Translations under genes and position numbers: made by a program | Shown: piece by piece, positions 5,988 to 57,271 of the stretch | Layout: the number at the start of each line of letters is the position of its first letter | Numbering within the stretch: position 1 is the first letter of the stretch | NCBI RefSeq assembly: GCF_003574315.2 | Contig: NZ_AP025739.1 | Coordinates: forward strand, 6,386,001 to 6,450,000 | From: Capsulimonas corticalis | Lineage (GTDB): Bacteria > Armatimonadota > Armatimonadia > Armatimonadales > Capsulimonadaceae | DNA: 64,000 bases | Direction: 5' to 3' | Notes under the pieces: model-generated | Told to the model about the DNA's origin: nothing | Database searches by the model: none | Seen by the model: only the letters and a program-made list of their open reading frames with translations

Positions 5988-6860
5988 ATGTCCGAACAGG
6001 CCGACGAAACCTTCATCATGGTCCCGGATTCCGTCCTTGCGCGAACGGACTTGCAGCCGAACGAGAAACTCTTGTTCGGCCTTGTCTCCTCGCTCGCTTC
6101 CGGGCACGGTTACTGCTGGGCGTCGAACGCCTATCTCGCGAAGCGAATCGGCGTCAGTGACCGCCATGTCAAGAGACTGCTGTCCGAAATCGAGAAACGC
6201 CAAATGATCCGAAGCATTGTTCACAAGGACCGTCGCAATCAACGGCATATCTATATTACGTACTGCACGGTGCAGGTCCCTAGTGATCCACAGGTCCCTA
6301 GTGATCCACAGGTCCCTAGTGATCCACAGGTCCTTAGTGATCCACAGGTCCTTAGTGATCCACAGGTCCTTAGTGATCCACAGGTCCTCTCCTCGGGATC
6401 TACAGATCCCGACCCTAGGGACACGTGGGTCCTGTCATCGGGACACGTACGTCACCACGCTAGGGACGGAGGTGTCCCCATAATAGATAATCTAAAAGAA
6501 AACAAAAAAGAAAGAGAAAAAAGAATTGAAGAAATAGCGCCGGAATCGCGCGCTAACGCGCAAGATACTCTCTCTCCAGATTCTTCGTTTTTTGATCCTC
6601 TTTCTCCGGAGAAAAAAACAGACGAAGAAAAAGGCCGCCTCGGCGACATCGTTTGCGAAGTCGTTGTGTCTCACGAATCGAGAACTCTTTCGCGTCGCAC
6701 GAAGAAACAGGATTGGTCCGGAATGGATGATAAAGGCCGTCAGCCTTACCGCGAGGCGGCGCGGATCGAACTCATTGGGCTTGGGATCGACTGCCCACCG
6801 GCGTTGGCAATTGAAAGCCGGGCGTTTAACCTTTGGACACTTCACCAGAAAGCAGGGTAA
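5988..6860 (+). CDS. Helix-turn-helix replication initiator-like protein with internal iterons
   Basis: 290 residues. Residues 1-95 form a winged helix-turn-helix (LQPNEKLLFGLVSSLASGHG, then NAYLAKRIGVSDRHVKRLLSEIEKR) of the type found at the N-terminus of phage O-like and plasmid replication proteins. Residues 96-131 are six hexapeptide repeats (QVPSDP or QVLSDP) encoded by perfect 18-bp DNA repeats. A low-complexity Lys/Glu-rich stretch follows (LKENKKEREKRIEEI), encoded by very A-rich DNA. The C-terminal region (about 205-290) has a small domain with basic residues. The layout (HTH, iterons in the coding sequence, then an AT-rich tract) parallels lambda O. Replication function is inferred. 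Confidence 0.65.
   Translation: MSEQADETFIMVPDSVLARTDLQPNEKLLFGLVSSLASGHGYCWASNAYLAKRIGVSDRHVKRLLSEIEKRQMIRSIVHKDRRNQRHIYITYCTVQVPSDPQVPSDPQVPSDPQVLSDPQVLSDPQVLSDPQVLSSGSTDPDPRDTWVLSSGHVRHHARDGGVPIIDNLKENKKEREKRIEEIAPESRANAQDTLSPDSSFFDPLSPEKKTDEEKGRLGDIVCEVVVSHESRTLSRRTKKQDWSGMDDKGRQPYREAARIELIGLGIDCPPALAIESRAFNLWTLHQKAG
6273..6388 (+). repeat. Six 18-bp iterons inside the rep gene (putative origin)
   Basis: Six direct 18-bp copies start at 6273, 6291, 6309, 6327, 6345 and 6363. The unit is CAGGTCCCTAGTGATCCA in copies 1-3 and CAGGTCCTTAGTGATCCA in copies 4-6. A truncated seventh begins at 6381. Diverged CTAGGGAC and GGGTCC motifs continue to about 6470. There are no spacers, so this is not a CRISPR array. 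Period-18 iterons that keep the reading frame are typical of initiator-binding sites located inside initiator genes. Confidence 0.75.
6481..6540 (+). other. A-rich tract, candidate DNA unwinding element
   Basis: About 60 bases that are mostly A on the + strand, within an otherwise G+C-rich region and starting about 100 bp after the iterons. It is coding (rep residues about 165-184). By analogy with the AT-rich region next to the lambda iterons it could be where strands open. Inferred from composition and position. Confidence 0.4.
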
Positions 6861-10206: not shown

Positions 10207-10941
10207 TCAGAAGCTGACGCCGGCGGGAACCTGCGCGAGATGGCGCGCGATACCGCGCTGATCTCCCGTGGACGGAAAAACTTCGCTGGGCCCATTCATC
10301 GCCCAGGCCGTGCCGTCGGCGCGCACGATCACATCCTTGAGCGCTAGGGGAATGCTCGTGAAGACTCGCACTTCGCGCGTGTCCATGGAGCCGCCCGCCA
10401 TCAGTTTCTCGGTATCGGTGAACGGCTCCAGATAGGCGATAACCTTGCCGGCGTCCGTAAAGCCTGTGTCCTTCAGCTTCTTGGTGACCGAGTCCGTGCG
10501 CTGGGCCTGCGTCTGCGGCGTCCAGTGGTGAACCGTCTCGCAGGGAGACAACGGGTTATTGTTGGCATCGACGGCGAGTAGCGCTCGGCAAGCGACCAGG
10601 TGATAAGTGATCAGGGTATCCGCGATCAGATCGGCATCGACCCGATGCACTTTATTCGTCCCGCCATGCCAGATCAATGTTTGTAGCGGCTGGGGATCGA
10701 TCTGCACGCCATTGATCAGGAAATCGAGGGAAGGGACTTCGTAGATTGCAGGATCGATGATCGGTCCGCCGCCGTCCCGGCTGGAGAAGTGCTGCGCCAC
10801 GGACGTCAGCGCGATCGGTTTGCGCTTCGCGTGCGTCTTGACAGCGCCGACCGTCGCCATAGATCCGTATGCGACGATATGGTGCAGTTTTTGCCGGGCA
10901 ATATTTGCGCCTAATCTGTTGACGACGGGCGGGTTTAGCAT
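10207..10941 (-). CDS. Hypothetical head-tail region protein
   Basis: 244 residues. No recognisable domain. Contains DPAIYEVPSLDFLINGVQIDPQPLQTLIWHGGTNKVHRVDADL, a beta pattern suggesting a capsid- or connector-associated fold. Lies between the gp6-like connector and the tail terminator. No signal peptide or membrane segment. Structural role inferred from position only. Confidence 0.5.
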   Translation of the reverse strand: MLNPPVVNRLGANIARQKLHHIVAYGSMATVGAVKTHAKRKPIALTSVAQHFSSRDGGGPIIDPAIYEVPSLDFLINGVQIDPQPLQTLIWHGGTNKVHRVDADLIADTLITYHLVACRALLAVDANNNPLSPCETVHHWTPQTQAQRTDSVTKKLKDTGFTDAGKVIAYLEPFTDTEKLMAGGSMDTREVRVFTSIPLALKDVIVRADGTAWAMNGPSEVFPSTGDQRGIARHLAQVPAGVSF

Positions 10942-10956
10942 CAGTCTCTCCGCTAG

Positions 10957-11577
10957 CTAGACACTAATGCGTCGGTAGCCGCCACCATGAAGCGTCTCTT
11001 TGAAGATCCGTCTCCATTCTTCGATTAGAGTGCCGATGGGCTTGAAATTACCGCTTGCGAATTTGATGTCTTCCGCCACGGCCACACCGTTCGTAATGGA
11101 GAATTCGAGTTCCGGCGCCGATAGCAGCGCCGCCTTACACAGGATCGCATTGCGTACGTTCGCGCGCAGCGCCGTCGTGAAGCCCCATTTGCCCGTCACA
11201 ACGATCGATTGCATGATCGACGACCCGGGCCGCGAGTAAAAACGCAGGTACGTGATCGGCTTACCCTTCGCGAGCGCGTTCTGCGGATACGCGTAGAAAT
11301 CTCGCCCCAGAACAAACGGCGTTCCCGCGACGGTCAGCGAGGTTAGCTCCACGAGACCGGCGCCAAGGTCCAGATCGCGCGAGGTCCTGGGCGGATCAAA
11401 GGAGCGCGAGCCGACCGTGGTGTCGTCCGCGAGGAACGGCGCGAAACCGGTCCCGTCCTCCCACTCCGTGATGGCCGAGAAGATCTTCGTTTCCACATCC
11501 AGATCATCGGGAATACGCTGCCCTGCGCCCAGCAGGAACTTGCGGAAGTCGGAGGCGTCGGGGTACCCGGTGTCCAT
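10957..11577 (-). CDS. gp6-like head-tail connector protein
   Basis: 206 residues from ATG 11577, with AGGAGA eight bases upstream; the longer upstream frame lacks such a site. The N-terminal half (YPDASDFRKFLLGAGQRIPDDLDVETKIFSAITEWEDGTGF) and the VELTSLTVAGTPFVLGRDFYAYP strands resemble phage gp6-type connector proteins, followed by a helical bundle (LRANVRNAILCKAALLSAPELEF). It should join the portal to the tail. Position downstream of capsid and upstream of tail genes supports this. Confidence 0.55.
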   Translation of the reverse strand: MDTGYPDASDFRKFLLGAGQRIPDDLDVETKIFSAITEWEDGTGFAPFLADDTTVGSRSFDPPRTSRDLDLGAGLVELTSLTVAGTPFVLGRDFYAYPQNALAKGKPITYLRFYSRPGSSIMQSIVVTGKWGFTTALRANVRNAILCKAALLSAPELEFSITNGVAVAEDIKFASGNFKPIGTLIEEWRRIFKETLHGGGYRRISV

Positions 11578-12187: not shown

Positions 12188-13701
12188 TGCCACGCGCCCG
12201 CCGGCTTCCCTGTCTTCAGCCAGTCACTGACATACTGAGTCTTCAAACCAAGTTCCTCACTCGGCCAGGTTGCCATGAGCTGGAGGTGACCGATCGGGAC
12301 ACGGTTCGCCAGGTACAGCGAGTTGCCCGCCTCGGCCCACTGGAGCCAGAAGGCGACGTCGCTGTCCACGCGCCCGTCGCCCCAGCGGCCGGCGTCGTCG
12401 GGCCGGGCATGGAACCAGGGACGCGGCAGGCGGCGCAGCGCGTCCACGCGGATCATCGTCAGGCCAAAATGGCCGGTTCGGATCTTCAGAACGTCCGTCT
12501 CGAAACGTGAATAATCGATCTCGGTTGCGCTCTTGCCGTCGTCGCCTTCCACGGTAAAGAGCGAATGATCGTTCTCGCGCCGGATCTGGACCGGGCAAAG
12601 CGCGTCAATGTCGGGCCGCGCTTCCATGACGCCATACAGCGTCCGCACATCCTCAGCGGTGAAAAGCGAATCATAATCGATCGCCAGGAGATACTTCGTC
12701 CCGTCGTCCATATGGCTTTCGAAGACGCGTGTCATCCCCTGGTCCCAGAATACGCCGCCGCTCTGCTCGAAGCTGATCGGATGGGCGCAGACGGCGCGGA
12801 TAATGCAGAACTGCGTGTCCGTGAAGCCAAGGCGCGGTACGGTAGCCACGGCCGCGACGTCGCCGGGCTTGATGACGATGGAGGCAAAGCGCAAATCCGG
12901 ACCTGATGATGCTTTCACGCTGTCCTGTGGAACTGTCTTAACATCAGCGACATGATCTAGAATTGAGCAATGGACCACACAAAGATTGCCTTCATTCTCC
13001 CAATACACTTTGACGCAATTGGGGTGCTTTTCGTAGATCTCCAAGACATCGCCAAAGCCGTTTCCACAGTCGCCGGAATTGTCCCAAACTTGATCGCCCA
13101 CAGCAAACCCGTGTGGGTTCTCTATTCGTCCAGGAGCAGGATTATTGATCGATGAATAATCCGCCGGAAGAGGTTTCATCCCCACCAGGTTCAGCGAAAC
13201 GGGAAGCGAGGCGCAGTCCGCGACTTCGGAATCCCATGTGTAGATGTTGACCAGTCCCAGATGCTCCATTGCCGCGCGCAGGCTCTGCTCATCAAAAATG
13301 GCGCCGTGGTGATCATTATCATCCACATGCCCGCCCATCAGATACCCTTCCAGCGGAAGCGCGGCGGCGGCGGAATTGGTGAGGGATTCGAGGTAGCGCC
13401 TTGCGATCCATTCGAAGTTCGGGACGGCGACACAGAGAAGCCCGCCCGGCTTCAAGACGCGAACCCAGTCGGCCAGGACCGCCATCGTCTCGCGATGGCT
13501 GAAATGCTCCAACACGTGTGAGGCGCGCACGCCGCAGACGCTTTCATCATCGAAAGCCAGTGGGTAGACTTCGCCGCGCCAGAGAATGGTGTCTTCGTCC
13601 ACGTGAAGGACATCCTTTTCGTATTTGCGGTCGATATTGATGTGGCCGCGAAGTGGAAGATCCCCAGAGCCTAGATTCAAAAGGAGGTTTTGAGGATTCA
13701 T
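12184..13701 (-). CDS. Methyltransferase - glycosyltransferase-like fusion
   Basis: 505 residues from ATG 13701 (ATGA overlap with the upstream gene). Residues 1-165 are a class I SAM-dependent methyltransferase: LLLNLGSGDLPL (motif I), INIDRKYEKDVLHVDED, VRASHVLEHF and VLKPGGLLCVAVPN. Residues 190-270 form a beta-rich linker (FAVGDQVWDNSGDCGNGFGDVLEIYEKH). Residues about 275-500 look like a GT-A glycosyltransferase or related domain (TKYLLAIDYDSLFTAEDVRTLY, with an acidic D-Y-D). Such enzymes may modify virion proteins or surface glycans; the target is unknown. The centre carries one copy of the dispersed GATCGAT palindrome. Confidence 0.65.
   Translation of the reverse strand: MNPQNLLLNLGSGDLPLRGHINIDRKYEKDVLHVDEDTILWRGEVYPLAFDDESVCGVRASHVLEHFSHRETMAVLADWVRVLKPGGLLCVAVPNFEWIARRYLESLTNSAAAALPLEGYLMGGHVDDNDHHGAIFDEQSLRAAMEHLGLVNIYTWDSEVADCASLPVSLNLVGMKPLPADYSSINNPAPGRIENPHGFAVGDQVWDNSGDCGNGFGDVLEIYEKHPNCVKVYWENEGNLCVVHCSILDHVADVKTVPQDSVKASSGPDLRFASIVIKPGDVAAVATVPRLGFTDTQFCIIRAVCAHPISFEQSGGVFWDQGMTRVFESHMDDGTKYLLAIDYDSLFTAEDVRTLYGVMEARPDIDALCPVQIRRENDHSLFTVEGDDGKSATEIDYSRFETDVLKIRTGHFGLTMIRVDALRRLPRPWFHARPDDAGRWGDGRVDSDVAFWLQWAEAGNSLYLANRVPIGHLQLMATWPSEELGLKTQYVSDWLKTGKPAGAWQ
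13141..13160. repeat. Dispersed GATCGAT palindrome, copy 1
   Basis: ATTATTGATCGATGAATAAT, inside the methyltransferase-glycosyltransferase gene where it encodes YSSINN. Identical to the copy at 45291 in the ParB-fusion gene. One base departs from perfect symmetry. Confidence 0.7.
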
Positions 13702-14444
13702 TTGTGCGGCGCCTCCCACGACGGATTGGTGCATGGGCAGACGTGGTTATGATTTTCAACCCAGAAGTGATGCACTTCGCAGGCAAGTTCGGCGCTGCCA
13801 CGCGTCGCGCAGGTGCAACGCTCTCCGCTCTCGTTTTGAAGTTTCCACCCCTCACCGCTTGCCGTCTTATAACGCCGGTCGAAAATGACTTCGTCTCCGA
13901 TACCTGAAGTTTGGCCGTATAGAAGTGCGTGAGTGAAATAGGAGATCTGTTTCGCATCCTGGACAGGCAGGTGGACGTTCTCCGCCTCAAGGTTGATTTT
14001 TACGTCTCCAATCGACTTACGAATACCGAAGCATTCGTTGGCGCAGTCATAAAATTCGAGCCGCGCTTCGTCTATGTCGATAGATCGTGTGTAGAACTTT
14101 GCTGCCCCAAACTCATAATCCACTGCATAGCGATTCAGCGGGCGTTCGTCTTCAGCAAGCGCCTGGTTGTCGTCCCCACATGCGATGGCGTTTTCTACAA
14201 CACGCCCCGGAACTTCGCCTGGGCACGCAGATTCACGAATTGAAGCGTCGCGAAGAATTTCATTAATCCGCTGCTGTGCGGGACAATAGTCAAAACGCAG
14301 ATTGTTTAGTTCTTCGTTGGCCGCCATCGATTCCTCGAGGAGTCTCTTCGCTTCCACTTCCAGGAAAATCTTGCGCGCGGCTCTCTTGCCCGACTCAGCG
14401 AGCAGAGAATTGATCTCCGCGACTTCTTGCTCTGTTAATGCCAT
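13698..14444 (-). CDS. Hypothetical protein behind a structured leader
   Basis: 248 residues, unrecognised. The first 45 are strongly helical (LTEQEVAEINSLLAESGKRAARKIFLEVEAKRLLEES). The C-terminus is Cys/His-rich (CTCATRGSAELACEVHHFWVENHNHVCPC), suggesting metal binding. It is preceded by a hairpin leader whose loop is complementary to its Shine-Dalgarno, so translation is probably controlled. It is coupled to the next gene by ATGA. Confidence 0.55.
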   Translation of the reverse strand: MALTEQEVAEINSLLAESGKRAARKIFLEVEAKRLLEESMAANEELNNLRFDYCPAQQRINEILRDASIRESACPGEVPGRVVENAIACGDDNQALAEDERPLNRYAVDYEFGAAKFYTRSIDIDEARLEFYDCANECFGIRKSIGDVKINLEAENVHLPVQDAKQISYFTHALLYGQTSGIGDEVIFDRRYKTASGEGWKLQNESGERCTCATRGSAELACEVHHFWVENHNHVCPCTNPSWEAPHK

Positions 14445-14512
14445 CTGCTGACGCCCTCCCGAGACGCCCCCGATACAATTTCACCCTGCGAGCGTCGGGA
14501 GCGCTCGCAGGG
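14445..14512 (-). promoter_or_regulatory. Leader RNA with loop complementary to the Shine-Dalgarno, copy 1
   Basis: On the minus strand an 11-bp perfect stem (14512-14502 with 14494-14484) carries the 7-base loop CUCCCGA. Thirty-nine bases separate the stem from ATG 14444, and this spacer contains UCGGGAG, exactly complementary to the loop and including the GGGAGG Shine-Dalgarno. The leader at 23976-24041 has the same geometry with a compensatory change in the loop-Shine-Dalgarno pairing. Confidence 0.6.
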
Positions 14513-14548
14513 CTATGGTTTGGCCGAAGCCTATTTTTTGGCTTTCGC

Positions 14549-14884
14549 CTATCTGTCATAACTTGTCGGCAACTCAGCTTTATAAAGAAGGACTTTAAAG
14601 TCATCTCCTAATTGCTTAGCGCGCAGGGCAACTATTTTTTTGTGAATGGTCTTTTCGTCGTCACCATCAGCCACGGCTTCTAGAAATAGGAGATCGCTCT
14701 CCATTTTTTCGACTGTTGGACCGCCCTCAGCGGTGTGGTCATACCATCCGCATGCACATCCTGCCCACTTCATCACTTCTAAGGCTCGCTTTGCGACTGC
14801 CTGAGTTGTGATGTTTTCTTGAACGGGACCATCGCTGTTAAAATCTTTTGGCTCTTTAGAGGCCGTTGTAGTTTGATCGTCCAT
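14549..14884 (-). CDS. Hypothetical protein
   Basis: 111 residues, acidic and helical, with WAGCACGWYDHTAEGGPTVEK near the middle. GGGAGGGAGC upstream of ATG 14884 is a strong Shine-Dalgarno; the same UCGGGAG seen in the two structured leaders lies here too. Between the virion protein gene and the leader-controlled gene. No domain recognised. Confidence 0.5.
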   Translation of the reverse strand: MDDQTTTASKEPKDFNSDGPVQENITTQAVAKRALEVMKWAGCACGWYDHTAEGGPTVEKMESDLLFLEAVADGDDEKTIHKKIVALRAKQLGDDFKVLLYKAELPTSYDR

Positions 14885-14930
14885 AATTGCTCCCTCCCGA
14901 GGAACCTGGAAAATGAATGCGCTTTTAAGC

Positions 14931-14961
14931 GCAGGCTAAGACTGTATTGGTCTTAGCCTGC
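14931..14961 (-). terminator. Hairpin after the virion protein gene
   Basis: A 12-bp perfect stem (14931-14942 with 14950-14961) with a 7-base loop, followed on the minus strand by a GCGC/AAAAGCGC palindrome. It lies 20 bases after the 14982-15431 stop. Possible terminator or attenuator that lowers downstream expression after the abundant head proteins. Confidence 0.5.
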
Positions 14962-18629: not shown

Positions 18630-18680
18630 GGGAAGGCTTTCGTCGGGGGAATGTCGTGAGAATCAAAGAGTTCCGATCTC

Positions 18681-18780
18681 ACGACAGATCTATTCTTACG
18701 ACAGATCTATTCTTACGACAGATCTATTCTTACGACAGATCTATTCTCTCGGCAGATCTACTCTTACGATAGATCTACTT
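18681..18780. repeat. Six tandem 17-bp repeats containing AGATCT
   Basis: Unit ACGACAGATCTATTCTT, copies start at 18681, 18698, 18715, 18732, 18749 and 18766; the last is cut to 15 bases. Copies 1-3 are identical, copy 4 differs only at its last base, copies 5-6 are diverged. The array fills most of the portal-protease spacer and overlaps the portal stop codon (18775-18777). No spacers, so not CRISPR. Function unknown; binding-site array is plausible. Confidence 0.75.
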
Positions 18781-20133
18781 GTCGGCGGCGTCAGGATCGT
18801 CGCTGACGCCCTGGGATCCGTCGGGCGTTGCGGTTTTTGCCGGCATCAACTCGAAATAATATCCGTCAATCTGCTCGTCCTTCTCGTAACCAAGACCGGC
18901 GCGCGCTTCGCTCAGTTTGCCGATACCGTTCTTGAAGTCGCCCCAGAAGCGTTTGTGCTTGGCGTCGAGGTCCGGCTGAAGGTCACGGACTTTGTCGTAG
19001 TTGAACGCGACGACCTCGTCCGGCGCACTCTTTTGCCCGGCGTGAAAATCGGGCAGCAATTCATCCGTGAGTGTCTCCCCGAACACGGAAAGCATCGGGA
19101 TGATGCCGTTTTCGTAGGACGCCTCGCGCGCCTCTTTTTTGTTCGCGTACTTCGTGTTGCCGGAGGGAAGTCCGACCGCCATCGGCTCGATGCCGAGCGT
19201 GGCGAAGATCCGCGACTCCGGACGGTCCCCGATGGTGTCGAGCGCCATTTCCTGCGGGGTGGATCCTATGCGATCGGCGCGTACGGGAATCGAGGGCATG
19301 ACCAGGCCGCCCCGGTTGTCCGCCGAAATACCTACCCGGACCTTGTCTTTCAGCTCGTCGACCGTATCCGTGTCCATCTCGGCGTCGTCGCCGACGGGGG
19401 AGATCATGATCGCGACGCCGAGGTTTTTCAGGATCGACGCGGTGAACGTCGCGATCTCGTTGTCGGAGACGACTTCGCGGAACTCAGCGCGGAAGGGGGC
19501 GTAGCCCTTCCGGTTGTTCTCCAGATCGAGACCGTTCTTGAAGTGGATGACGTTGGCGCGCGCATAGACTTCCGTCTTACCATTTGGGAGCGTGCGCTTG
19601 TAGAACTCGGTCGGCCCGTTCCCGAGCGGCGCCAGAGGCTCCATCTGCCAGTGCGCGATATACCAGAGCTGCTGAACGGACCCGTACCCACCGGACCCGC
19701 GCACCTTGACGATATAGGCGTTTCCGTCCAGCTTATAGGACGCAGCGCAGGCCTGGAGCATCGCGCGCCAGCTGTATTCGCCGTTGGGCCTGCGAAGCAG
19801 CTGAATCAGTGCGTGCCCGGGGATCGGCGTGGGCGTTCCGTCGGGATCCGAGACGACTTGAAGGCGCGGCTCCGCGACCTTGTTGAAGATATATTGGATT
19901 CCGATCGAGATCGCCGGGTTTTCCCAGAGCGGTCCCGCCTCGTTTTGCCAGTTGCGGACGCTGCCCCGGTAATACTGATGATTGCGCCCGGAGAGCACAC
20001 TCCATCCGGCGTCGCCTTCGGCCGTCACGCCGCCATCCTTAATGGACAGGACCGCGTTCAAACCCCGACGGATCTGCTGGCGGAGGCCCGGCAGCTTCCC
20101 GGTATTTAGTTTTCCGGCCTTGAAGACTGCCAT
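18775..20133 (-). CDS. Portal protein (HK97 family)
   Basis: 452 residues. NPAISIGIQYIFNKVAEPRLQV at the start, the PNGEYSWRAMLQACAASYKLDGNAYIVKVR block, and VIHFKNGLDLENNRKGYAPF are typical of HK97 portals. The C-terminal region (LQPDLDAKHKRFWGDFKNGI) is the helical barrel. It forms the dodecameric DNA entry ring and docks the terminase. Order terminase-portal-protease-capsid is canonical. Confidence 0.9.
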   Translation of the reverse strand: MAVFKAGKLNTGKLPGLRQQIRRGLNAVLSIKDGGVTAEGDAGWSVLSGRNHQYYRGSVRNWQNEAGPLWENPAISIGIQYIFNKVAEPRLQVVSDPDGTPTPIPGHALIQLLRRPNGEYSWRAMLQACAASYKLDGNAYIVKVRGSGGYGSVQQLWYIAHWQMEPLAPLGNGPTEFYKRTLPNGKTEVYARANVIHFKNGLDLENNRKGYAPFRAEFREVVSDNEIATFTASILKNLGVAIMISPVGDDAEMDTDTVDELKDKVRVGISADNRGGLVMPSIPVRADRIGSTPQEMALDTIGDRPESRIFATLGIEPMAVGLPSGNTKYANKKEAREASYENGIIPMLSVFGETLTDELLPDFHAGQKSAPDEVVAFNYDKVRDLQPDLDAKHKRFWGDFKNGIGKLSEARAGLGYEKDEQIDGYYFELMPAKTATPDGSQGVSDDPDAADK

Positions 20134-20142
20134 AAGGGATTG

Positions 20143-20271
20143 TTATTCCGGCTTCTTGAAGTACGCGATCGCGGCCAGAGAGCCCAGCGCGAGCACGATC
20201 AGGACGACGCCCAGTTCGGCGACGCCGCCGGCGACAGCCGTCGCATATTCGAACAATTTGAATGGCGTCAT
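20143..20271 (-). CDS. Small membrane peptide between terminase and portal
   Basis: 42 residues: a short N-terminus MTPFKLFEYATAVAGG, one hydrophobic segment of about 21 residues (ELGVVLIVLALGSLAAIAYF) and a basic end. Single-span small peptides at this locus are common in phages and of unknown use. Starts 18 bases after the terminase stop, ends 10 bases before portal ATG. Confidence 0.5.
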   Translation of the reverse strand: MTPFKLFEYATAVAGGVAELGVVLIVLALGSLAAIAYFKKPE

Positions 20272-20289
20272 AGGTGTACTTGTCCAGGT

Positions 20290-21864
20290 CTACATCAACT
20301 TGAAAACGCGTTTCTTTTTGCTCATGCGCCGGAGCGCCTGCGTGAGTGCGTCTACATCGTCGTCTTTGGCGGCGTTTGGGAATGCTGTCAGCCGGTCGAG
20401 GGTTACCTTGATCCATGGATAAAGCGCAGGGTGCGGAAGATACACATTTCCGGACTCGCACATCGGAGTGACGGCATGAGCGCGGGAGACTTTATCACCT
20501 TCGGGTTCGATAGGGATGAGCCCCGGGATCTCTTTTTTCAGCGAGGAAATTACCGCAGGTCCGTTTGCCTTATCCTCAACGAGTTTCGCGAGCGCCAGCG
20601 GCCACTTCTCCGTCATCGCGCGAACGGCCGCGATCGTGGCCGTGAAATCCATGCGTTCACAAACTTGATCGAGCAGGAAGCAATCGGCTTTGACCTGAGC
20701 CCAGACCTGCCCGGCGACGAAGTCCGCGCCCTTGCTGTCTTTGAACGACATATCCCAGGACTGGAGGAGTGTTTCAAATCCCTCAGGGATCTCGATGACG
20801 GGGCTGTCAAAGAATGAGCCGTCCTCCAGGACAATGGTAATCGGCGGGAGTTTGCCGAGCAGACCTTTGGGAACCCAGTAGCGCCACCAATGGCTTTTGA
20901 AGATGATGCCGGCGGCGGGTCGCGGCGACTGCTGATGCTGCCCGGCAAAATCCGTTTCGCCCAGATCCTTTTTCAGCTGACTGAGTACTTGCTTCGTGAA
21001 CATCTCCGGGAACAAGAGATCCCCATGCTCAGTCCGCGGATCTGACCAGAATTCAGTGCGCATTTCGTCTTCGCCATCATTAAGATCATTATCCTTGGAG
21101 AAGATGAATGTACGCGAACGGCGCTCCGGCTCAAATTCCGACGGCAGGCAAAGATGCTCGAAGCCGCCCTTCGCAAGTATATGTCCGGACAGATCTTCTT
21201 CATGCAAACGCTGCATGATCACGACGCGCTTGCCGCCACGCGGATCATTGATCCGCGTGGGCATCACTTTGTCCCACCAGAAGATGCACTCGTCGCGGGT
21301 CGCCTTCGAATGCATTTCCTTGGCGTTCAAAGGGTCGTCGACCACGATCTTGTTTCCGCGAAAACCAGTAGCGCGGCCGCCGACGGACATCGAAAACCGA
21401 AAACCGGTCTTATCGTTCTGAAACCAGGACTTAACGTTCTGGTCGCCCTTCATTTTCCAGTCCGGCTCGAACCACTCCTGGTACCAGTCGGAAGTGATCA
21501 GGTCTCGGCAACGAACGCTATCACGGATTGCAAGATCCACGGCGTAGGACGAGAATAGAGAGCGTTCGCGCGGATTTTGGATCCATTCCCATGCCGGCCA
21601 GAAGACACTAACTAGGAGCGACTTCATATGCCCGGGTGGGATATTAATGAGCAGGTCACGGATGTGACCTAAAGTCACCGCCTCCAGATGATCACAGATA
21701 CAGTCCACATGCCAGTTGTTGATCAGCGGCATTCCCGGCTCAATGATGTGCCATGAATGCTGAACAAAGTCACGCAGATGCGCGCGGCATGCGGCTATAT
21801 CACGCCGACGTCGCTCCGCTCGGATTTGTGCCGGTGTCCAGATCTCCAGAGCCGGCTTCGGCAT
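20290..21864 (-). CDS. terL: Terminase large subunit
   Basis: 524 residues from ATG 21864. N-terminal packaging ATPase: Walker A-like PPGHMKS at 76-82, Walker B IVVDDP at 173-178. C-terminal RNase H-type nuclease: LQSWDMSF supplies the first Asp, DKANG and the acidic cluster DDDVDAL the others. It cuts concatemers and pumps DNA into proheads via the portal. The first 65 bases overlap the small-subunit gene. Belongs to the Terminase_6-like type. Confidence 0.9.
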   Translation of the reverse strand: MPKPALEIWTPAQIRAERRRRDIAACRAHLRDFVQHSWHIIEPGMPLINNWHVDCICDHLEAVTLGHIRDLLINIPPGHMKSLLVSVFWPAWEWIQNPRERSLFSSYAVDLAIRDSVRCRDLITSDWYQEWFEPDWKMKGDQNVKSWFQNDKTGFRFSMSVGGRATGFRGNKIVVDDPLNAKEMHSKATRDECIFWWDKVMPTRINDPRGGKRVVIMQRLHEEDLSGHILAKGGFEHLCLPSEFEPERRSRTFIFSKDNDLNDGEDEMRTEFWSDPRTEHGDLLFPEMFTKQVLSQLKKDLGETDFAGQHQQSPRPAAGIIFKSHWWRYWVPKGLLGKLPPITIVLEDGSFFDSPVIEIPEGFETLLQSWDMSFKDSKGADFVAGQVWAQVKADCFLLDQVCERMDFTATIAAVRAMTEKWPLALAKLVEDKANGPAVISSLKKEIPGLIPIEPEGDKVSRAHAVTPMCESGNVYLPHPALYPWIKVTLDRLTAFPNAAKDDDVDALTQALRRMSKKKRVFKLM

Positions 21865-22444
21865 AGATGCTTTCAAGCAATTTGAACCTCTCCTCGCTGA
21901 GCTTTGAGAGCTCCACCGGCGGTTCGTTCTTGAGAGCGATCGCGCCGCCATCCTTGCCTGTCAGTTCGCGCCGGTTCGTATAAGCGCCGCCGCGCTCTTC
22001 CGCCGCCTGCTTTGCCGCCTGGAGGAGAAGGACGTCGTTCCCGTTGATTTCGCAGCGATCGACAACTGACTGGATCTTTTGGAGCCGCACAGCGGGATTC
22101 GCGATCGGGATGTCGTCAAGGCGGTCCAGGTACCGAGCTCGTCGCTCGAAAAACAAAGCCTTCAGCGCTTCCGCCATTTCCTTTTCGCCCTGCACCGTGT
22201 TAGGGTTGTAGCGATTGATCGTCGCCTTCGGCACATCCCGTCCGAACAAATCCATAATCTCGGAGCGTATCTCTGTTGGCCCAGCGTACTGCGCCAACCG
22301 GTCGATGATATAAGTAACGATATCTGATGGCAGCGTTTTGGGACCTGGCACGGTGGAAGCCGACACCTTCGGCGAGTCGGCTTTCGCCACACCCCCCTTG
22401 GCCGCCACCGGCGGCTTCGCCGCATCTTTCCTAGGTCGTCCCAT
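21800..22444 (-). CDS. terS: Terminase small subunit
   Basis: 214 residues from ATG 22444 with AGGTG upstream. A Lys/Pro/Ala-rich disordered start precedes an HTH-like block (DIVTYIIDRLAQYAGPTEIRSEIMDLFGRDVPKATINRYNPN) likely binding the packaging site, then helices for oligomerisation (FERRARYLDRLDDIPIANPAVRLQKIQSVVDRCE). It overlaps terL, the usual arrangement. Confidence 0.75.
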   Translation of the reverse strand: MGRPRKDAAKPPVAAKGGVAKADSPKVSASTVPGPKTLPSDIVTYIIDRLAQYAGPTEIRSEIMDLFGRDVPKATINRYNPNTVQGEKEMAEALKALFFERRARYLDRLDDIPIANPAVRLQKIQSVVDRCEINGNDVLLLQAAKQAAEERGGAYTNRRELTGKDGGAIALKNEPPVELSKLSEERFKLLESIYAEAGSGDLDTGTNPSGATSA

Positions 22445-22451: not shown

Positions 22452-23111
22452 CTAAACCATTCGCAGACAATTGCCGCACGCGGCCCGAATCGACGCCTCA
22501 CCGATCAGCGGCGGCAGGTTCGAGACGCGCACCAGCTCCGCCGTCGCGCCGGCGCACGCCCCGGCGCCGTACCGCTCGGCGACACCGACAAACTCCTCGA
22601 CATCATGGCCTCGGAGCGCCAGGATCGGTTTGCCGGTCGATTTGCTGAATTTCTTAATCCGGAATTGATCTTTGGCGTGAGCAATATGGTAAAGTTCGTG
22701 CTCGACCAGCGCGCAAAAATTGACGTCGGGGTTCTCGGCGGCGAACACAGCATCCAAGGTGATCAGGAAATCGAGATTTCGGGGAAACCATGCGGACAGC
22801 TGAAGATCGTGGCGCGCCTTTTGCCAGCGATTGCCCTGGCAGATCGGCTTCTCGGTCATGCCGGCGACCGCATGGCCGCCGCGAAAGTTCGGCGCATTCG
22901 TCCAGAGGAACCCGATCGACGCCGTCCGCAGATGCTGGTGTGCGGGATTGGCGAGCGGCCCATCCTCGTCGATGATCGCGCGCATGACCCACTCGGCAAG
23001 GTCCTCGGCCGGTTCGAACCGCGTCACCATCCGCCCTTCGTCCGACAGGCGAGATGGCGGAAGCGGCCGCGACAGCATCGCGCGCTCGATTTGTCGTTTG
23101 GTGGCTAGCAT
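22452..23111 (-). CDS. Phage metallopeptidase-domain protein
   Basis: 219 residues. FCALVEHELYHIAHA gives the HExxH zinc site (His138, Glu139, His142); the strand before it (LDFLITLDAVFAAENPDVNF) and the length match the putative phage metallopeptidase family found beside terminase or in early regions. It lies seven bases upstream of terS. Substrate unknown; a role in head maturation or host-protein cleavage is inference. Confidence 0.7.
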   Translation of the reverse strand: MLATKRQIERAMLSRPLPPSRLSDEGRMVTRFEPAEDLAEWVMRAIIDEDGPLANPAHQHLRTASIGFLWTNAPNFRGGHAVAGMTEKPICQGNRWQKARHDLQLSAWFPRNLDFLITLDAVFAAENPDVNFCALVEHELYHIAHAKDQFRIKKFSKSTGKPILALRGHDVEEFVGVAERYGAGACAGATAELVRVSNLPPLIGEASIRAACGNCLRMV

Positions 23112-23149: not shown

Positions 23150-23431
23150 TCAGCCGCCAAACTCTAGCGACTTACTCCCGCCGGGTAACTGCTCCAACCA
23201 GAGATACGCCGTCTCCGCACAGGTAATAGCTTCCGAAAGCTCGCGGTTATACAGGAGGCCCGTGCTTTTGCAGTCGCGAGCTACAGTGATGATTTTCTGC
23301 ATTTCGGCGCGCAGGAAGTCGGCTTTCTCAGCAGCCAGCGATTTAGGATCGACCTCCTCAGGATCATCGGTCCACGTACAGCCAGGCTTGCCGCAAAACG
23401 GGGTCCGGATCCCGGGGGTGCACTTACACAT
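23150..23431 (-). CDS. Hypothetical Cys-containing small protein
   Basis: 93 residues. The start has CKCTPGIRTPFCGKPGCTW, a possible zinc-knuckle with four cysteines, followed by helices (SLAAEKADFLRAEMQKIITVARDC). Its first codons overlap the end of the upstream gene, so it is coupled. No family recognised. Confidence 0.55.
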   Translation of the reverse strand: MCKCTPGIRTPFCGKPGCTWTDDPEEVDPKSLAAEKADFLRAEMQKIITVARDCKSTGLLYNRELSEAITCAETAYLWLEQLPGGSKSLEFGG

Positions 23432-23975
23432 GGTTTGCTTCCTTATCCTGTGGACGAACCCAGTGTTGCCAGCTTTGCTCTTTAGTGGAATTCAAAGCAC
23501 GGGGGTTCTCAATCGCGTTGCCGACATGCCGAACAGCCGCCTCCCACGCTGTTTGAATGGCGACTGGCAGGTCATCAAACGCTGGCATAGGCTCACCGCG
23601 AAAGTTCTTGTTGCCGGTTGATGCAGCGTAGGCGCGGTATGCGCTCGCCGCCATGTCCGTCCAGGCGAAACCTGCCTGTACTTGGCACGTTGGCTGCTCA
23701 TCTCCAGTCATCTTGAAACGCAGTGTCGTCAGCTGTTCGACCACAACATCCAGCGCGTCAACGGTATCGAAGATCATCCGAACCGGCGTGTTGAGTTCTG
23801 ACGTGGACTTTCCTTTCCATTCACCGTAATAGCGTCCGACTTCTCCCGGCTCATGGACTATGAATGCGATTTCGTCTTCACATTCGCGGTCAAGACCTTT
23901 GCTAGGACAGATCGCAATATCGCCAGAACCGAAATGTAGAATGAGAGATCCGTCGTCTCCAGGATAACTTGGCAT
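23424..23975 (-). CDS. Hypothetical protein behind a structured leader
   Basis: 183 residues, unrecognised. N-terminal half beta-rich (SLILHFGSGDIAICPSK, EIAFIVHEPGEVGRYYGEWKGK), C-terminal half helical (FAWTDMAASAYRAYAASTG). Preceded by a hairpin leader homologous to that of the 13698-14444 gene, with the Shine-Dalgarno complementary to the hairpin loop. Confidence 0.55.
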   Translation of the reverse strand: MPSYPGDDGSLILHFGSGDIAICPSKGLDRECEDEIAFIVHEPGEVGRYYGEWKGKSTSELNTPVRMIFDTVDALDVVVEQLTTLRFKMTGDEQPTCQVQAGFAWTDMAASAYRAYAASTGNKNFRGEPMPAFDDLPVAIQTAWEAAVRHVGNAIENPRALNSTKEQSWQHWVRPQDKEANHV

Positions 23976-24041
23976 ATTTGACGCCCTCCTGAGGCGTCTC
24001 CTGAAATGTTTACTCCGCAGGCGTCAGGAGCGCCCACGGAG
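23976..24041 (-). promoter_or_regulatory. Leader RNA with loop complementary to the Shine-Dalgarno, copy 2
   Basis: On the minus strand an 11-bp stem (24041-24031 with 24023-24013; two G-U pairs) carries loop CUCCUGA. The 37-base spacer before ATG 23975 contains UCAGGAG, complementary to the whole loop and including the AGGAGG Shine-Dalgarno. A second short hairpin (23980-23998, GACGCC with GGCGTC) would place that Shine-Dalgarno in its loop. Compare 14445-14512. Confidence 0.6.
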
Positions 24042-24103
24042 CAGCGAGTACATTTTCATCGCGTCTCAATCCCTATCCGCCGCGCGCGCCGCACATCAGA
24101 CGT

Positions 24104-25339: not shown

Positions 25340-25415
25340 AGCAGCAGCCAATTTTACGTCTAGCTCTCTCGACGTCTGATATGTGATTGTGCAGTGAAGG
25401 AAGGTGAACGGATCG

Positions 25416-25435
25416 ATTATTGATCGATCAATAAT
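25416..25435. repeat. Dispersed GATCGAT palindrome, copy 2 (perfect)
   Basis: ATTATTGATCGATCAATAAT, a perfect 20-bp palindrome two bases from the CCA end of the tRNA-Asp-like gene. Intergenic. Best copy of the five. Confidence 0.75.
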
Positions 25436-25437: not shown

Positions 25438-25514
25438 TGGGGCCCGCGGGCCGCTGTGAGCAACCATCTTCCCGATGACAAATCGGGCGCTCTACTATAT
25501 TGAGCTACGCAGGC
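25438..25514 (-). tRNA. tRNA-Asp (GTC)
   Basis: 77 nt including an encoded CCA. All four arms fold: acceptor GCCTGCG with CGCGGGC (one G-U), D-arm GCTC/GAGC, anticodon stem CCCGA/TCGGG with loop TTTGTCA (anticodon GTC), 5-nt variable region, T-stem with two G-U pairs. The T-loop CTCACAG departs from the usual TTCRANY, so function may be altered. Confidence 0.8.
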
Positions 25515-25586
25515 ATAAATGATTCCGGTTACCAGGAACGGCCCGCGAAGTCCGTCACTCCGGATTGCACTTTTCATGCAAGGCGC

Positions 25587-25665
25587 TGGTCCGAGGGGAA
25601 GGATTTGAACCCCCGACCTCACGGTTTTCAAGGCCGTGCGCTCTACCAGGCTGAGCTACCCAAGG
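25587..25665 (-). tRNA. tRNA-like gene, anticodon TGA (Ser) with short variable arm
   Basis: 79 nt including encoded CCA. D-arm GCTC/GAGC and T-arm GGGGG-TTCAAAT-CCTTC are normal. The anticodon arm is CACGG...CCGTG with either a 9-nt loop or a sixth C-A pair and the 7-nt loop CTTGAAA (anticodon TGA). Acceptor CCTTGGG with CCCTCGG has two mismatches. A serine tRNA should have a long variable arm; this one has about 5 nt, so identity is uncertain and it may be degenerate. Confidence 0.6.
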
Positions 25666-38172: not shown

Positions 38173-38649
38173 TCAATCCTTTCCCGCCCACGAATCGACT
38201 TCCGCCCAGTCGTAAGCCGCCCAGAGAATCCCAGAGGCGTTAGCCCCGCGCGCCCACATGATTTCAAAAACTCGCTGATCGTATTGATCGATCAATAATC
38301 GCGCAACGTTGGATCGGTGGCATGTCTCCGCGTTCCGGCACCCACACATCAAAATCACGGAATGCGGATGCTCAAGGACATACTGCGCTCCGGCGGCGGC
38401 GTCGACCAATTCGATCTGGCGGCTTCCGTCCGCGTTCGCGGGCTCCCGGTAGCGCTTATTGCCAAGCTGCACGCAGCGCGCATAACGATCGCCGAGAAAC
38501 TCGCGAAGGGCTCCATGCCGCCATTGCGGATGCGCGCTCCAGGCGCGGTACCGGATGTCCACAATCGTCGCGTCCAGGCGCTCCGCGATCATCAATAGGT
38601 CCGCCGGCTTGCGTCCCTCGTAGCCCATCGTGTAGACCGTAGGCGTCAT
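38173..38649 (-). CDS. DUF488 family protein
   Basis: 158 residues from ATG 38649 (ATGA overlap with the gene upstream). Starts PTVYTMGYEGRKPADLLMIAERLDATIVDIRYRAWSAHPQWRHGALREFLGDRYARCVQLGNKRY and contains VILMCGCRNAETCHRSNVA, both DUF488 hallmarks (VDIR, LGN, C-x-C...CHR). Function in phages unknown; possibly nucleic-acid related. A dispersed palindrome lies in its 3' end. Confidence 0.8.
   Translation of the reverse strand: MTPTVYTMGYEGRKPADLLMIAERLDATIVDIRYRAWSAHPQWRHGALREFLGDRYARCVQLGNKRYREPANADGSRQIELVDAAAGAQYVLEHPHSVILMCGCRNAETCHRSNVARLLIDQYDQRVFEIMWARGANASGILWAAYDWAEVDSWAGKD
38280..38299. repeat. Dispersed GATCGAT palindrome, copy 3
   Basis: CGTATTGATCGATCAATAAT; the inner 16 bases are a perfect palindrome. 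Lies within the DUF488 gene (encodes LLIDQYD). Shares the 17-base core with all other copies. Confidence 0.65.
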
Positions 38650-43928: not shown

Positions 43929-46412
43929 TTAGAAGCCCTCCGACTGTGTGGCGCGTGTCAGCACGATGGAGCTCAGGCGCTCGGACAGATTGATATTTTC
44001 AGCATGGTTTTCGTTATAGGCGTCCGTAAGCATGCGAAGCGCATTCTTGGCCTTTGGGACAAGGCGGTATTCGAGCAGCTCCGCAATTGCCTGATCCGCC
44101 GTCAGACCCATTTCCCAGAGCGCGTCCGTGCTGTCCTTTGAGAGTGTCACGGTGCGGTCATCGGTCTGATCGGCAGCCTGCGCCCCCTGCATCGATGCTC
44201 GAACGCCGTCACGAATGTTCACCATCGTCGCCGCGCTGAGCGGACAATGGTGGCAAATCGAGGGGATATCCTCTCCGATCAGCACCTCGACCGGCCCGGT
44301 CGGTGTAGCGGCCTCCGGTACTGAGGCTGCCTGTGCGTCCACTGTGTCATGTGGTGCAGATGATCGTACTTCGCAAGGCGCGTCGTCCGCAGATGATGAA
44401 GCTGGCGCGTCTTCGTGCGCTGCATGCTCAGTCGCTCCAGCAGCGGCCACCACCGGCACGGGATCTCCGGACGAAAATACGTCCTGTGCGACCATCTCAT
44501 GACTGCCATCAATTTCCTCCTCGTTGCTATTTGGGGATCGTTCTGACATTGCCGGCGCCGGAGGCGCTTCGACTTCGGCGGCGGGGATCGGTCCCGGCTC
44601 AGAGAAGACGGTGGCCGAAATTGTTGGCGCCACCACATTGAAGTAGGGAGACGCGGCCGAGCGCTGAAGGTCGGCGATATGATCGGTAATTACCTGATCC
44701 AATTTGCTGACGGACCAGGACGCGGCGAAAGCGTCTCCAGCGAACTTGATCATCGACGCTTCGGTCCCCTGTAGCTTACGCAGCTTCAGCAATTTGAAAC
44801 CGTGCGTGGCGGAGATGCGCCCGTGGCGAAGATGATCCTGGACACTTTCAGGAAGCGTGAGTAAGTTCAGCGTTTGACTGATGGAAGATTGATCGACGCC
44901 AGTCTCCGCCTCAATTTCCGCCTGTGTCTGACCGAGTTTCACGCGGTTCGCATATCCACGAGCGCGCTCCAGGGGATTGAGAGGCTCACGCTCATCGTTT
45001 TCGGCCGTCGCGATACGCGCCATCTGCAAATCATCGTAGACAGCGACTTCAGCGCGCAATGAAGCAAGTCCCGCGATCTTCGCCGCGCGGAAGCGCCGCT
45101 CGCCGCAGGCGATCTCGAACTTGCCGGCGTCTTTTGCGGCATGGCGGACGACAATCGGCTGGAGTTGCTTGTTTATGGTCAGGCTGCGCGCCAGGTCCTC
45201 CAGCGGTTTTTGAGCGAATATGTCACGCGGCTGAAAAGGATTGGGAAGGAGATTCTCAAGCGGAATATCTTGCGTGTCAGGGCCGACAGCATTATTGATC
45301 GATGAATAATTCTCAGAGCCTGACGAATTATTTTCGATGCGCGCTTCTCCCACGGATGTGACCAGTGTCAAGACAGGAGCCGCCGGCTTATTCAGAACGA
45401 TGATCTTCGTGCTGACGGCCGTCTTCTTATCGCTCTCCAGGAAGGAGCCGTGGGGAACTTCGAACGCCTCGCCGTCATTGACCCGGAACCACTGCTGGAA
45501 GAGCGATGCCTTCTTATCGGACCGAAAGAACGCGCCGTCGGACATCACGGATACAAGGCGCCCGCCCGGCGCCAGCAACTCATACGCGTGACGGACATGA
45601 TCGATATCGACGCCGCGCTCGAACGGTGGATTGCAGACAAATCGATCGAAGAGCTCTTCCGAGCGCCATTCGAGGAAATCGGACCCCGCAATCGGATAAC
45701 CTTTGGCCGATAAGATCTCGCGAAGCTGAAGGTTGATCTCAATCACCGTGAGCGGGACGTCGGGATGTTCGGCGCGGATCCGGTCGGCGATATGGCCGCT
45801 GCCTGCCTGGGGCTCGCACGTCCTCATTCCCGCTTCGATCTCGGCAAGCTCCAAAAGGCGCGTCACCAATCCGTCCGGCGTCGGGAAGTAGCCGGGGATG
45901 TTGACGCCGACCAGCCCGCGCATCAGCTTGCGCAACTTCAGTGCTTCTTTCGATTCCCCGCCGGCGTCCTCGGCGGCGGCCTCCAGAATCTTCTTCGCTT
46001 CATCAAAATCCGCTGCGGTCGCGATGCCAGCAGCGAGTAGTCGCCCCTGCTCGCTGCTGGATCCGATCCAGTCCGGGAACTTCGTATTGAAGAGAATGTT
46101 TTCGATGACCGACTTCGTCTTGATTCGGGAGACGACCAGAGGAACCGTGCCAGCGTCGTGGGCATCCGCCAGATATTGCAGTGATGCCTGGACGCGCTGC
46201 ATCCGCTTCGCGTCGCGCTCGGCATCCTCCGCCTCACGGATACGCTTGGGTGTGTTGGCAAGGCGAGGGGCAAGCTTGACATCGATGGCCGCCTGCATCC
46301 CGTTCGCCAGAACGCGCAGTTTGTCGGAGATCTTCAGATCCTCGCCTTCGCCGGCCTCTCTTGGCGCGAGTTGACCGACTGTCTGAATTTTAGTATCGAT
46401 TTCAGCAAGCAT
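43929..46412 (-). CDS. N6-methyltransferase - ParB fusion
   Basis: 827 residues from ATG 46412. Residues about 170-340: methyltransferase with CEPQAGSGHIADRI (motif I) and CNPPFERGVDI (NPPF motif IV). A linker (345-380) holds a dispersed palindrome (YSSINN). Residues 383-560: ParB/Noc domain, GERRFRA (437-443), NDEREPLNPLERA and an HTH (ETGVDQSSISQTLNLL). A disordered acidic section and a C-terminal Cys motif (CHHCPLS) with helices complete it. No ParA is nearby. May bind the dispersed palindromes; inference. Confidence 0.8.
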   Translation of the reverse strand: MLAEIDTKIQTVGQLAPREAGEGEDLKISDKLRVLANGMQAAIDVKLAPRLANTPKRIREAEDAERDAKRMQRVQASLQYLADAHDAGTVPLVVSRIKTKSVIENILFNTKFPDWIGSSSEQGRLLAAGIATAADFDEAKKILEAAAEDAGGESKEALKLRKLMRGLVGVNIPGYFPTPDGLVTRLLELAEIEAGMRTCEPQAGSGHIADRIRAEHPDVPLTVIEINLQLREILSAKGYPIAGSDFLEWRSEELFDRFVCNPPFERGVDIDHVRHAYELLAPGGRLVSVMSDGAFFRSDKKASLFQQWFRVNDGEAFEVPHGSFLESDKKTAVSTKIIVLNKPAAPVLTLVTSVGEARIENNSSGSENYSSINNAVGPDTQDIPLENLLPNPFQPRDIFAQKPLEDLARSLTINKQLQPIVVRHAAKDAGKFEIACGERRFRAAKIAGLASLRAEVAVYDDLQMARIATAENDEREPLNPLERARGYANRVKLGQTQAEIEAETGVDQSSISQTLNLLTLPESVQDHLRHGRISATHGFKLLKLRKLQGTEASMIKFAGDAFAASWSVSKLDQVITDHIADLQRSAASPYFNVVAPTISATVFSEPGPIPAAEVEAPPAPAMSERSPNSNEEEIDGSHEMVAQDVFSSGDPVPVVAAAGATEHAAHEDAPASSSADDAPCEVRSSAPHDTVDAQAASVPEAATPTGPVEVLIGEDIPSICHHCPLSAATMVNIRDGVRASMQGAQAADQTDDRTVTLSKDSTDALWEMGLTADQAIAELLEYRLVPKAKNALRMLTDAYNENHAENINLSERLSSIVLTRATQSEGF
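45291..45310. repeat. Dispersed GATCGAT palindrome, copy 4
   Basis: ATTATTGATCGATGAATAAT, identical to copy 1 and encoding the same YSSINN peptide, here in the linker between the methyltransferase and ParB domains. Confidence 0.7.
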
Positions 46413-51606: not shown

Positions 51607-51881
51607 TGAATATGATCAATCCAGATTTTATTGAACGCTGGGCCGCGCGGCTCCTGAAGCGCGGCGAACGCTGGTCCAAGCGCAAGATTGCGACCTGGGC
51701 GACGGGCCTGATCGCGTCGGCCATTCTCGGGCCGCACATGCACCGTCCAACACTCAAAGATGCTGTGCTTCTGATGCAACAGGCAATTTCAGGCCCAGGG
51801 GCGCCGCTCAATCAGCAAACGATGGAACGGAACAATCAAAAAGATATCGACGCCATGAATAAGGCGATGCAGAAGCGCTGA
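51606..51881 (+). CDS. Hypothetical small protein
   Basis: 91 residues; ATG 51606 overlaps the previous stop (TAATG). Helical, one weakly hydrophobic stretch (TWATGLIASAILGPHM). Polar Asn/Gln end. Coupled to the zinc-ribbon protein and likely its partner. Confidence 0.5.
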   Translation: MNMINPDFIERWAARLLKRGERWSKRKIATWATGLIASAILGPHMHRPTLKDAVLLMQQAISGPGAPLNQQTMERNNQKDIDAMNKAMQKR

Positions 51882-51901
51882 AATATTGATCGATCAATAA
51901 T
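51882..51901. repeat. Dispersed GATCGAT palindrome, copy 5
   Basis: AATATTGATCGATCAATAAT, intergenic, directly after the 51881 stop and 30 bases before the -10 box of the cargo operon. One base departs from perfect symmetry. Confidence 0.7.
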
Positions 51902-55353: not shown

Positions 55354-55878
55354 TTAACTCCCTCGACGCCACCTGAAATCCCCAGCTTGAACAGCTAAAA
55401 TCACCACTCCGCGCCGCGACCAATCAACTTGATGTATTCGGTAATGCACATTGGTGCCGGTGCTCATGAAATCACGCGCGAGCTGATCGATCGTTTGTCC
55501 GGCCTGGAAGCCGAGGATATCGGCCGCCTGAGTCAGAATGGGATCGATCGCCGACCACGTCAGCACGTCCGAGACCTGAATAAAGTCTCCGTACTGCGCG
55601 ATGCCTACCGTCACCGGCGTTACCGTCAAGTTGTTGCCCGTCGGCGTAACGCCTTCGGAGAGCGGCGAAGTCGCGGGACTCAGCAGCTCAAAACGCCGCA
55701 TCTGCATGGTCGTTCCGGCGTTCTTGTCAATCGGCCGATCGTCCGCAAACTGCGCGTGGATCAAATTTGGGCGCGCCGCCTTGAGAAGCCGCCGATCATA
55801 CGCGATCCGCACTTCCGCCGGCAAGCTGCCGCCCGCGCCGGGAGTTGTCCCCGGTCCAAATACATGTGTCGTCGCCAT
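55354..55878 (-). pseudogene. Truncated N4gp56-type major capsid gene (phage B)
   Basis: 174 codons. RIAYDRRLLKAARPNLIHAQFADDRPIDKNAGTTMQMRRFELLSPATSPLSEGVTPTGNNLTVTPVTVGIAQYGDFIQVSDVLTW is a strong match to N4gp56 capsid proteins (usually 300 residues or more). Family sequence ends at TGTNVHY and is replaced by about 30 unrelated codons. The remainder is presumably beyond prophage A's other end. Confidence 0.8.
55415..55450. other. Probable attachment site (attR) junction
   Basis: On the minus strand the phage B capsid frame reads on-family to STGTNVHY (55460-55435), then changes to an unrelated tail that stops at 55354. The integrase stop is 93 bases away. Serine integrases act on short sites next to their gene, so the crossover is expected here. 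The other junction is left of the window. Confidence 0.6.
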
Positions 55879-55943
55879 GGCTAGTTACAGTCCTTACTGT
55901 GTCATAAAAGAAGCGCCCGGCCCCACTGGCCGCACGCTGAAAA

Positions 55944-56090
55944 GCCCTCACCCGGCCCTTCGCCAACTCTCTTTATTCGGGGAGAGGGTTAAGATGAGAT
56001 CAAGATTTGGATCTGTGATCCAAAAGACCTTATCACTCCCTCTGACTCCCCCTCTCCCAAAATAGGGAGAGGGGGCAGGGGGGTGAGGGC
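55944..56090. repeat. REP/MITE-like element
   Basis: Ends in inverted repeats GCCCTCACCC (55944-55953) and GGGTGAGGGC (56081-56090), with an internal CCCTCTCCC/GGGAGAGGG hairpin. 147 bp long, directly after the scaffold gene stop. A related piece lies at 58485-58531. A dispersed host repeat is likely. Confidence 0.6.
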
Positions 56091-56094
56091 CGAT

Positions 56095-57265: not shown

Positions 57266-57271
57266 GACGTT

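Follow-up and report, generated by a model that had tools for sequence, protein, structure and literature searches.

Phage leader RNAs with a hairpin loop complementary to tandem downstream sequences, the last usually the Shine-Dalgarno: a possible class of cis-acting translation switch

The leader of ribosomal protein S15, the alpha-operon leader and the preQ1 riboswitches control translation by sequestering the Shine-Dalgarno sequence (SD) in a pseudoknot; each has a single target and responds to a bound protein or ligand. ColE1 RNA I and RNA II form a kissing-loop antisense pair of two separate RNAs. Repeats at phage ribosome-binding sites (RBS) have also been described: in cluster K, the 13-bp SAS stands at the RBS of many genes of one phage and ESAS consists of upstream inverted repeats (discussed in PMC3203893, PMC11373665, PMC7302621 and PMC12699233), the latter having been interpreted as a promoter with inverted repeats (PMC11373665). 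Cluster EF Microbacterium phages are treated in PMC7302621, cluster M mycobacteriophages carry CR3/CR4 repeats with upstream stem-loops (PMC7953290), and in Beggiatoaceae TAACTGA repeats stand in tandem before start codons (PMC4679880).

Here we analysed 64,000 nt of the Capsulimonas corticalis chromosome (hereafter the window), in which two genes are preceded by leaders of like build (Table 1). A sequence-only reading of this DNA had described 11-bp stems closing 7-base loops (CUCCCGA in one, CUCCUGA in the other), spacers of 39 and 37 nt, and loop complements (UCGGGAG and UCAGGAG) at the SD of two unrelated genes; direct reading agreed on every one of these points, the complementarity of each SD copy to its own hairpin 1 loop extending over all 7 nt, and the genes were confirmed to be unrelated. 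Counting terminal pairs, hairpin 1 has 12-13 bp and a 7-nt loop in both leaders. That reading had missed two features shared by both leaders: shortly 5' of the AUG a second hairpin, of 6 bp, holds the SD copy as its 7-nt loop, so that both complementary 7-mers are hairpin loops; and the target occurs once more 11-12 nt upstream of the SD copy, at 22 nt from the AUG. The two leaders have a mean column identity of about 73% in pairwise alignment. For leader 1, a competing fold is predicted at -36.6 kcal/mol, compared with -30.1 for its two hairpins without the kissing contact. The gene directly upstream of leader 1 (14549-14884) also has an SD, UCGGGAG, as the loop of a small hairpin, GUUCC-UCGGGAG-GGAGC, in its own leader (14885-14960, minus strand), and the 12-bp hairpin that precedes it has a 7-nt loop, CAAUACA, not complementary to UCGGGAG.

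Table 1. Features of the two window leaders and of the genes that follow them
Feature	Position	Strand	Remarks
Leader 1, hairpin 1: GCCCUGCGAGCG-CUCCCGA-CGCUCGCAGGGU	14483..14513	-	Read directly; -24.0 kcal/mol
Leader 1, parts of hairpin 1	5' arm 14513-14502, loop 14501-14495, 3' arm 14494-14483	-	11 bp plus terminal G.U
Leader 1, distal target UCGGGGG	14467..14473	-	One G.U when paired to loop 1
Leader 1, hairpin 2: GGCGUC-UCGGGAG-GGCGUC	14450..14468	-	6 bp; loop 14456-14462 is the proximal target, including the SD
Leader 1, start codon AUG	14444	-	Spacer behind the 11-bp stem, 39 nt
Gene after leader 1	13698..14444	-	248 aa, without known family
Leader 2, hairpin 1: UGCUCCGUGGGCG-CUCCUGA-CGCCUGCGGAGUA	24011..24043	-	Read directly; -21.7 kcal/mol
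Leader 2, parts of hairpin 1	5' arm 24043-24031, loop 24030-24024, 3' arm 24023-24011	-	11 bp plus two pairs; 3 G.U in total
Leader 2, distal target UCAGGAG	23998..24004	-	
Leader 2, hairpin 2: GACGCC-UCAGGAG-GGCGUC	23980..23998	-	6 bp; loop 23986-23992 is the proximal target, including the SD
Leader 2, start codon AUG	23975	-	Spacer, 37 nt
Gene after leader 2	23424..23975	-	183 aa, weak match to PHROGs of unknown function

Like the S15, alpha-operon and preQ1 leaders, the element has a hairpin loop predicted to pair with or near the SD of its own mRNA, and the complementarity of loop and SD region is kept by compensatory change; it stands apart from them by its tandem targets, by an SD that may lie in a hairpin loop of its own, and by a pairing sequence free to turn over between phages. 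With ColE1 RNA I and RNA II the window leaders share two hairpins with fully complementary 7-nt loops, but here both hairpins belong to one leader and one of the loops is the SD. SAS, written as GGG-AUAGGAG-CCC, likewise allows a reading with the SD in a 7-nt loop, although the window SD hairpins (GGCGTC-TCGGGAG-GGCGTC and GACGCC-TCAGGAG-GGCGTC) do not match its 13-bp consensus, GGGATAGGAGCCC. We rejected SAS/ESAS as the present element because the coding strand of Adephagia has no upstream hairpin with a loop CUCCUAU (CTCCTAT) complementary to SAS. The CR3/CR4 repeats of cluster M resemble it in placing stem-loops 5' of a conserved repeat that overlaps the RBS of many genes; they too were rejected, as the loops of Estes, mostly 4-5 nt long, lack complementarity to the RBS repeat, and so were the Beggiatoaceae repeats, for which a complementary hairpin is not described (PMC4679880). 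A CsrA/Rsm operator did not fit either, the loops UCGGGAG and UCAGGAG being without ANGGA, and CsrA would not account for the complementary loop. In Rfam, the window and its relatives gave no family above the gathering score except tRNA, and in the open papers searched we found nothing like this element described; an earlier description elsewhere is possible.

We think it fairly probable that the element is a cis-acting phage leader RNA that sets reduced or switchable translation of one operon gene. Hairpin 1 would fold upon transcription, its loop being the complement of a short sequence that stands one to three times in tandem between hairpin 1 and the start codon, the last copy being the SD in the window and in most relatives. 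The contact of loop 1 with the SD would take the form of kissing loops in the window, where the SD is in the second hairpin loop, and of an H-type pseudoknot elsewhere, and it should exclude the 30S subunit. The upstream copy would compete for loop 1 and so release the SD, and the ribosome, a protein or the RNA concentration might shift this balance. The hairpins, the complementarity, the tandem targets, the co-variation, the tolerance of G-U and the place before start codons are read from the letters of the DNA; that the pairing lowers translation when it takes in the SD, and that the distal copy acts as a decoy or switch, are what we would expect of such a leader, and translational control by pairing is plausible. 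The predicted 7-bp duplex of loop and target is worth -11.3 kcal/mol in leader 1 and -9.8 in leader 2, versus about -4 for the anti-SD CACCUCC on the same stretch.

The two window leaders are alike enough to be one cassette duplicated within one prophage, and so we considered whether the likeness is a chance or functionless one. Hairpin pairs with fully complementary 7-nt loops, both within 70 nt and with minimum stem lengths of 10 and 6 bp, occurred twice in the window (leaders 1 and 2) and not once in 60 dinucleotide shuffles; relaxing the stems to 6 and 5 bp gave 2 in the window versus a shuffle mean of 0.017. Moreover, the two loop-target pairs differ and yet remain complementary, and many independent relatives with other stems and other loops, described below, refute chance and duplication for the class as a whole; we find this explanation hardly credible. 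Across the 7.65-Mb host chromosome the CTCCYGA pattern matched only leaders 1 and 2, and a scan of the window and the 40 kb to its left found no further convincing element of this kind.

Most of the window, which is part of a single-contig chromosome, is a prophage transcribed from the minus strand. Its genes include those for terminase, portal and capsid, and one for a serine recombinase (53765-55342). Neither the leader nor 22 kb of the prophage matched phage records in DNA similarity, and among 60 related genomes, viral contigs and phage records the proteins encoded after the two leaders had no usable relatives; because of this, covariation was studied at other loci, and the covariation evidence comes from these rather than from the window genes themselves. 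Several other features of this region were observed. The palindrome ATTGATCGATCAAT (or ...GATGAAT) occurs in the window at 13137-13160, 25412-25435, 38276-38299, 45287-45310 and 51878-51901; of its 8 sites in the 7.65-Mb chromosome, 7 fall within 83 kb around the prophage, two of them 20-31 kb left of the window, so that it is a candidate phage operator and its distribution a sign of a prophage extending leftward. Between the portal gene and the gene that follows it (18660-18794), a 17-bp unit (TCTTACGACAGATCTAT) is repeated in tandem about six times, 18-bp repeats at 6255-6398 code for PQVPSD/PQVLSD repeats within the ORF 5988-6860, and adjacent tRNA genes, Thr(tgt) and Ser(tga), lie inside the prophage at 25438-25665 (minus strand). 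To the right of the recombinase, 55354-63220 holds a second phage-like gene set, differing from that at 18775-21951, with what by eye are a portal-like protein (58117-60057) and a large-terminase-like protein (60370-61980), and is probably another prophage or a remnant. Finally, the gene at 22452-23111 (minus strand) matches PHROG 513, named transposase, at E 9e-64; its product contains EHELYHIAH, which looks like a metallopeptidase, and the family name may be wrong.

Further copies and covariation were sought and came to light at about ten more loci with unrelated stems, as well as in chaperone leaders with co-diverging targets. When viral contigs were scanned for CTCCYGA and TCRGGAG separated by a spacer, 50 matches came up, nearly all of them chance, among which L030 and L036 show the whole structure with unrelated stems; a second scan that made a tandem target copy a requirement added L111, L116, L099, L193, L090, L104, L097, L105, L110 and L202. 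The loop 7-mer lay inside a hairpin in 13 of 92 complementary pattern matches versus none of 93 mismatched ones (Fisher p = 7e-5), a p value to be taken only as a guide, since the 13 include leaders 1 and 2, some loci from phages related to one another, and probably a few that do not truly belong. SD hairpins with other stems were seen as well: GCCGCC/GGCGGC in L111, CCGCC/GGCGG in L030 and UUGUC/GACAA in L036. In a pattern scan of genome contigs, none of 59 matches had a clear hairpin. Were the identity of the base pair at the variable position immaterial, members with CUCCAGA/UCUGGAG would be expected; of the 39 matches to this class, set beforehand, none was structured, and an after-the-fact reading is that ribosome binding may require a purine on the SD side.

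A de novo scan of the collected loci found 35 cases of complementarity between loop and leader of at least 7 nt where 11.4 were expected, a figure that includes ascertained members and effects of local composition and was used for leads only (the second element of L116, L013 and L206). The second element of L116, at about 12290-12360 on the minus strand, has a different pairing sequence, GGGGCGGCCCGGA-CCCACGU-UCCGGGCCGCCU, followed by UACGUGGGAGGUAAAGAGAUG. Leaders of primase-like genes in L058, L060, L062, L064, L067, L069, L072, L081, L082, L087 and L089 carry GGGCUCCUGACUGAGCCC, another hairpin and then tandem UCAGGA copies 5' of the AUG; these are a possible divergent form with CUCCUGA partly in the stem, and for that reason the marine primase leaders (L058, L062 and others) were excluded from the core set.

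Similarity to annotated Arthrobacter phage proteins identifies the product of the gene after the L116 element as a tail assembly chaperone, and leaders of this gene family offered loci that could be chosen by protein similarity, independently of leader sequence, to which named phages were added. A strong hairpin of at least 12 bp was present in 46 of 67 distinct chaperone leaders (many of the other 21 have a doubtful start codon call), falling into 15 loop classes, 14 of which have one to three complementary stretches downstream. In these leaders a 12-18 bp hairpin is kept while the loop diverges, and the one to three tandem targets diverge with it: CCCCAAC is accompanied by GUUGGGG, CUCCUGGCGGG by CCCGCCAGGAG, UCCCGAAUG by CAUUCGGGA and CGUUCGGG, CACCCCGA by UCGGGGUG and UCGGGGU, UUUUCUCCUGU by ACAGGAGAGAA and ACAGGAGAAG, and UUGUGGGA by UCCCACAA, UCCCGCAA and CCCACAGGA. 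The summed length of loop-target helices was 113 when each loop was matched with its own leader, a value reached by none of 20,000 permutations, the best of which gave 98. Named phages with the element include TM4, Che8, Karkharias, Isolde, AGM1 and Adephagia, the last with its copy at the tail assembly chaperone gene. Brevibacterium phage AGM1 has the loop UCUCUCCUG and three CAGGAGA copies; Adephagia and TM4 have loops with UUUCCUGGUG and three CACCAG-type copies each, the last copy of TM4, CACCAGGAGG, being on the SD; and Che8 pairs GGGCUGGC with GCCAGCCC. The phiC31 gp41 leader, with a single helix 46 nt from the start, was not counted as a member, and the annotated 'pseudoknot RNA' of Giles (10907-10974) showed no loop-SD arrangement.

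Operators, too, would give repeats that co-vary between phages, and so the same pattern could be read at the DNA level, as a short operator present three times, once inverted within a palindrome, for a phage DNA-binding protein whose specificity varies from phage to phage. The inverted copy is, however, always the loop of a hairpin and on one strand relative to the gene, its position tracks the start codon and the SD, and G.U pairs are tolerated in the stems. Across distinct loop-target pairs the deviations from Watson-Crick pairing were 16 G-U, 2 A-C and 8 other, and because they are mostly G-U they point to RNA pairing rather than a DNA site, which we regard as very improbable. MAFFT put the loops out of register in the leader alignment. 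Of the selected loop-SD pseudoknot claimed at the outset, the pairing with the SD region stood: covariation, homologues fetched by protein and the G-U bias, across independent loci, strongly support selected base pairing of the loop with this region. Its simple form proved incomplete, given the SD hairpin and kissing loops in the window and several relatives, the usual two or three tandem targets, and a group of actinophage leaders with GUGGGAC, in which the paired targets lie 21-36 nt upstream of the AUG, off the SD; in most members the proximal target is 2-11 nt 5' of the AUG.

Complementarity alone cannot separate pairing in cis from pairing in trans, in which hairpin 1 or a cut leader fragment would act as antisense RNA against the transcript it comes from or against sister transcripts, and repression would track transcript number. 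The linker between a 14-bp stem and the first target is only 3-6 nt long in some members, and on a geometric estimate cis pairing at so short a distance is doubtful while the stem is fully closed; the short linkers of single-target members (3-5 nt, 14-bp stem) would suit intermolecular pairing better. Against this, loop and targets occur together within about 75 nt at all loci found, and where one genome has two elements (the window; L116) these differ in pairing sequence, as self-specific cis control predicts. We infer that the pairing takes place in cis in the cell and consider action in trans improbable.

Several elements stand in the gap between the gene of the major tail protein and that of the chaperone, which long GC-rich hairpins occupy, and the hairpin with its loop-target pairing might act there on the RNA itself, as an exonuclease barrier, a processing site or a transcription attenuator between the upstream gene (often the one for the major tail protein, which is highly expressed) and the gene next to it; translation would then change only indirectly. 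The GUGGGAC-group targets, off the SD, would agree with this. The last target is on the SD in most members, though, the window elements do not adjoin a major tail gene, and no U run follows hairpin 1 in the window, where it is trailed by GAAAUUGUA and AACAUUU; an intrinsic terminator was rejected on the latter ground. An effect at the level of the RNA itself seems to us rather unlikely, and a leader controlling translation in cis remains our preferred reading.

We judge the chances evenly balanced that these leaders form an unrecognised and widespread class of phage cis-RNA, present even in the model mycobacteriophage TM4, in which the loop would choose among tandem complements, the last usually the SD; each such leader would then be a kissing-loop switch of translation that is complete in itself, its pairing sequence drifting freely from phage to phage. 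From a single long transcript a phage operon has to yield its products in set proportions, such as plenty of tail tube protein beside little chaperone, and the way in which this is achieved is poorly known; the element stands at the gap between the tail protein and chaperone genes in several phages, and also before other phage genes. Its recognition rule is a simple one, a loop complementary to tandem downstream copies, and it is present in tractable laboratory phages. Because loop and targets evidently can change together, it may also serve as a compact RNA switch for engineering.
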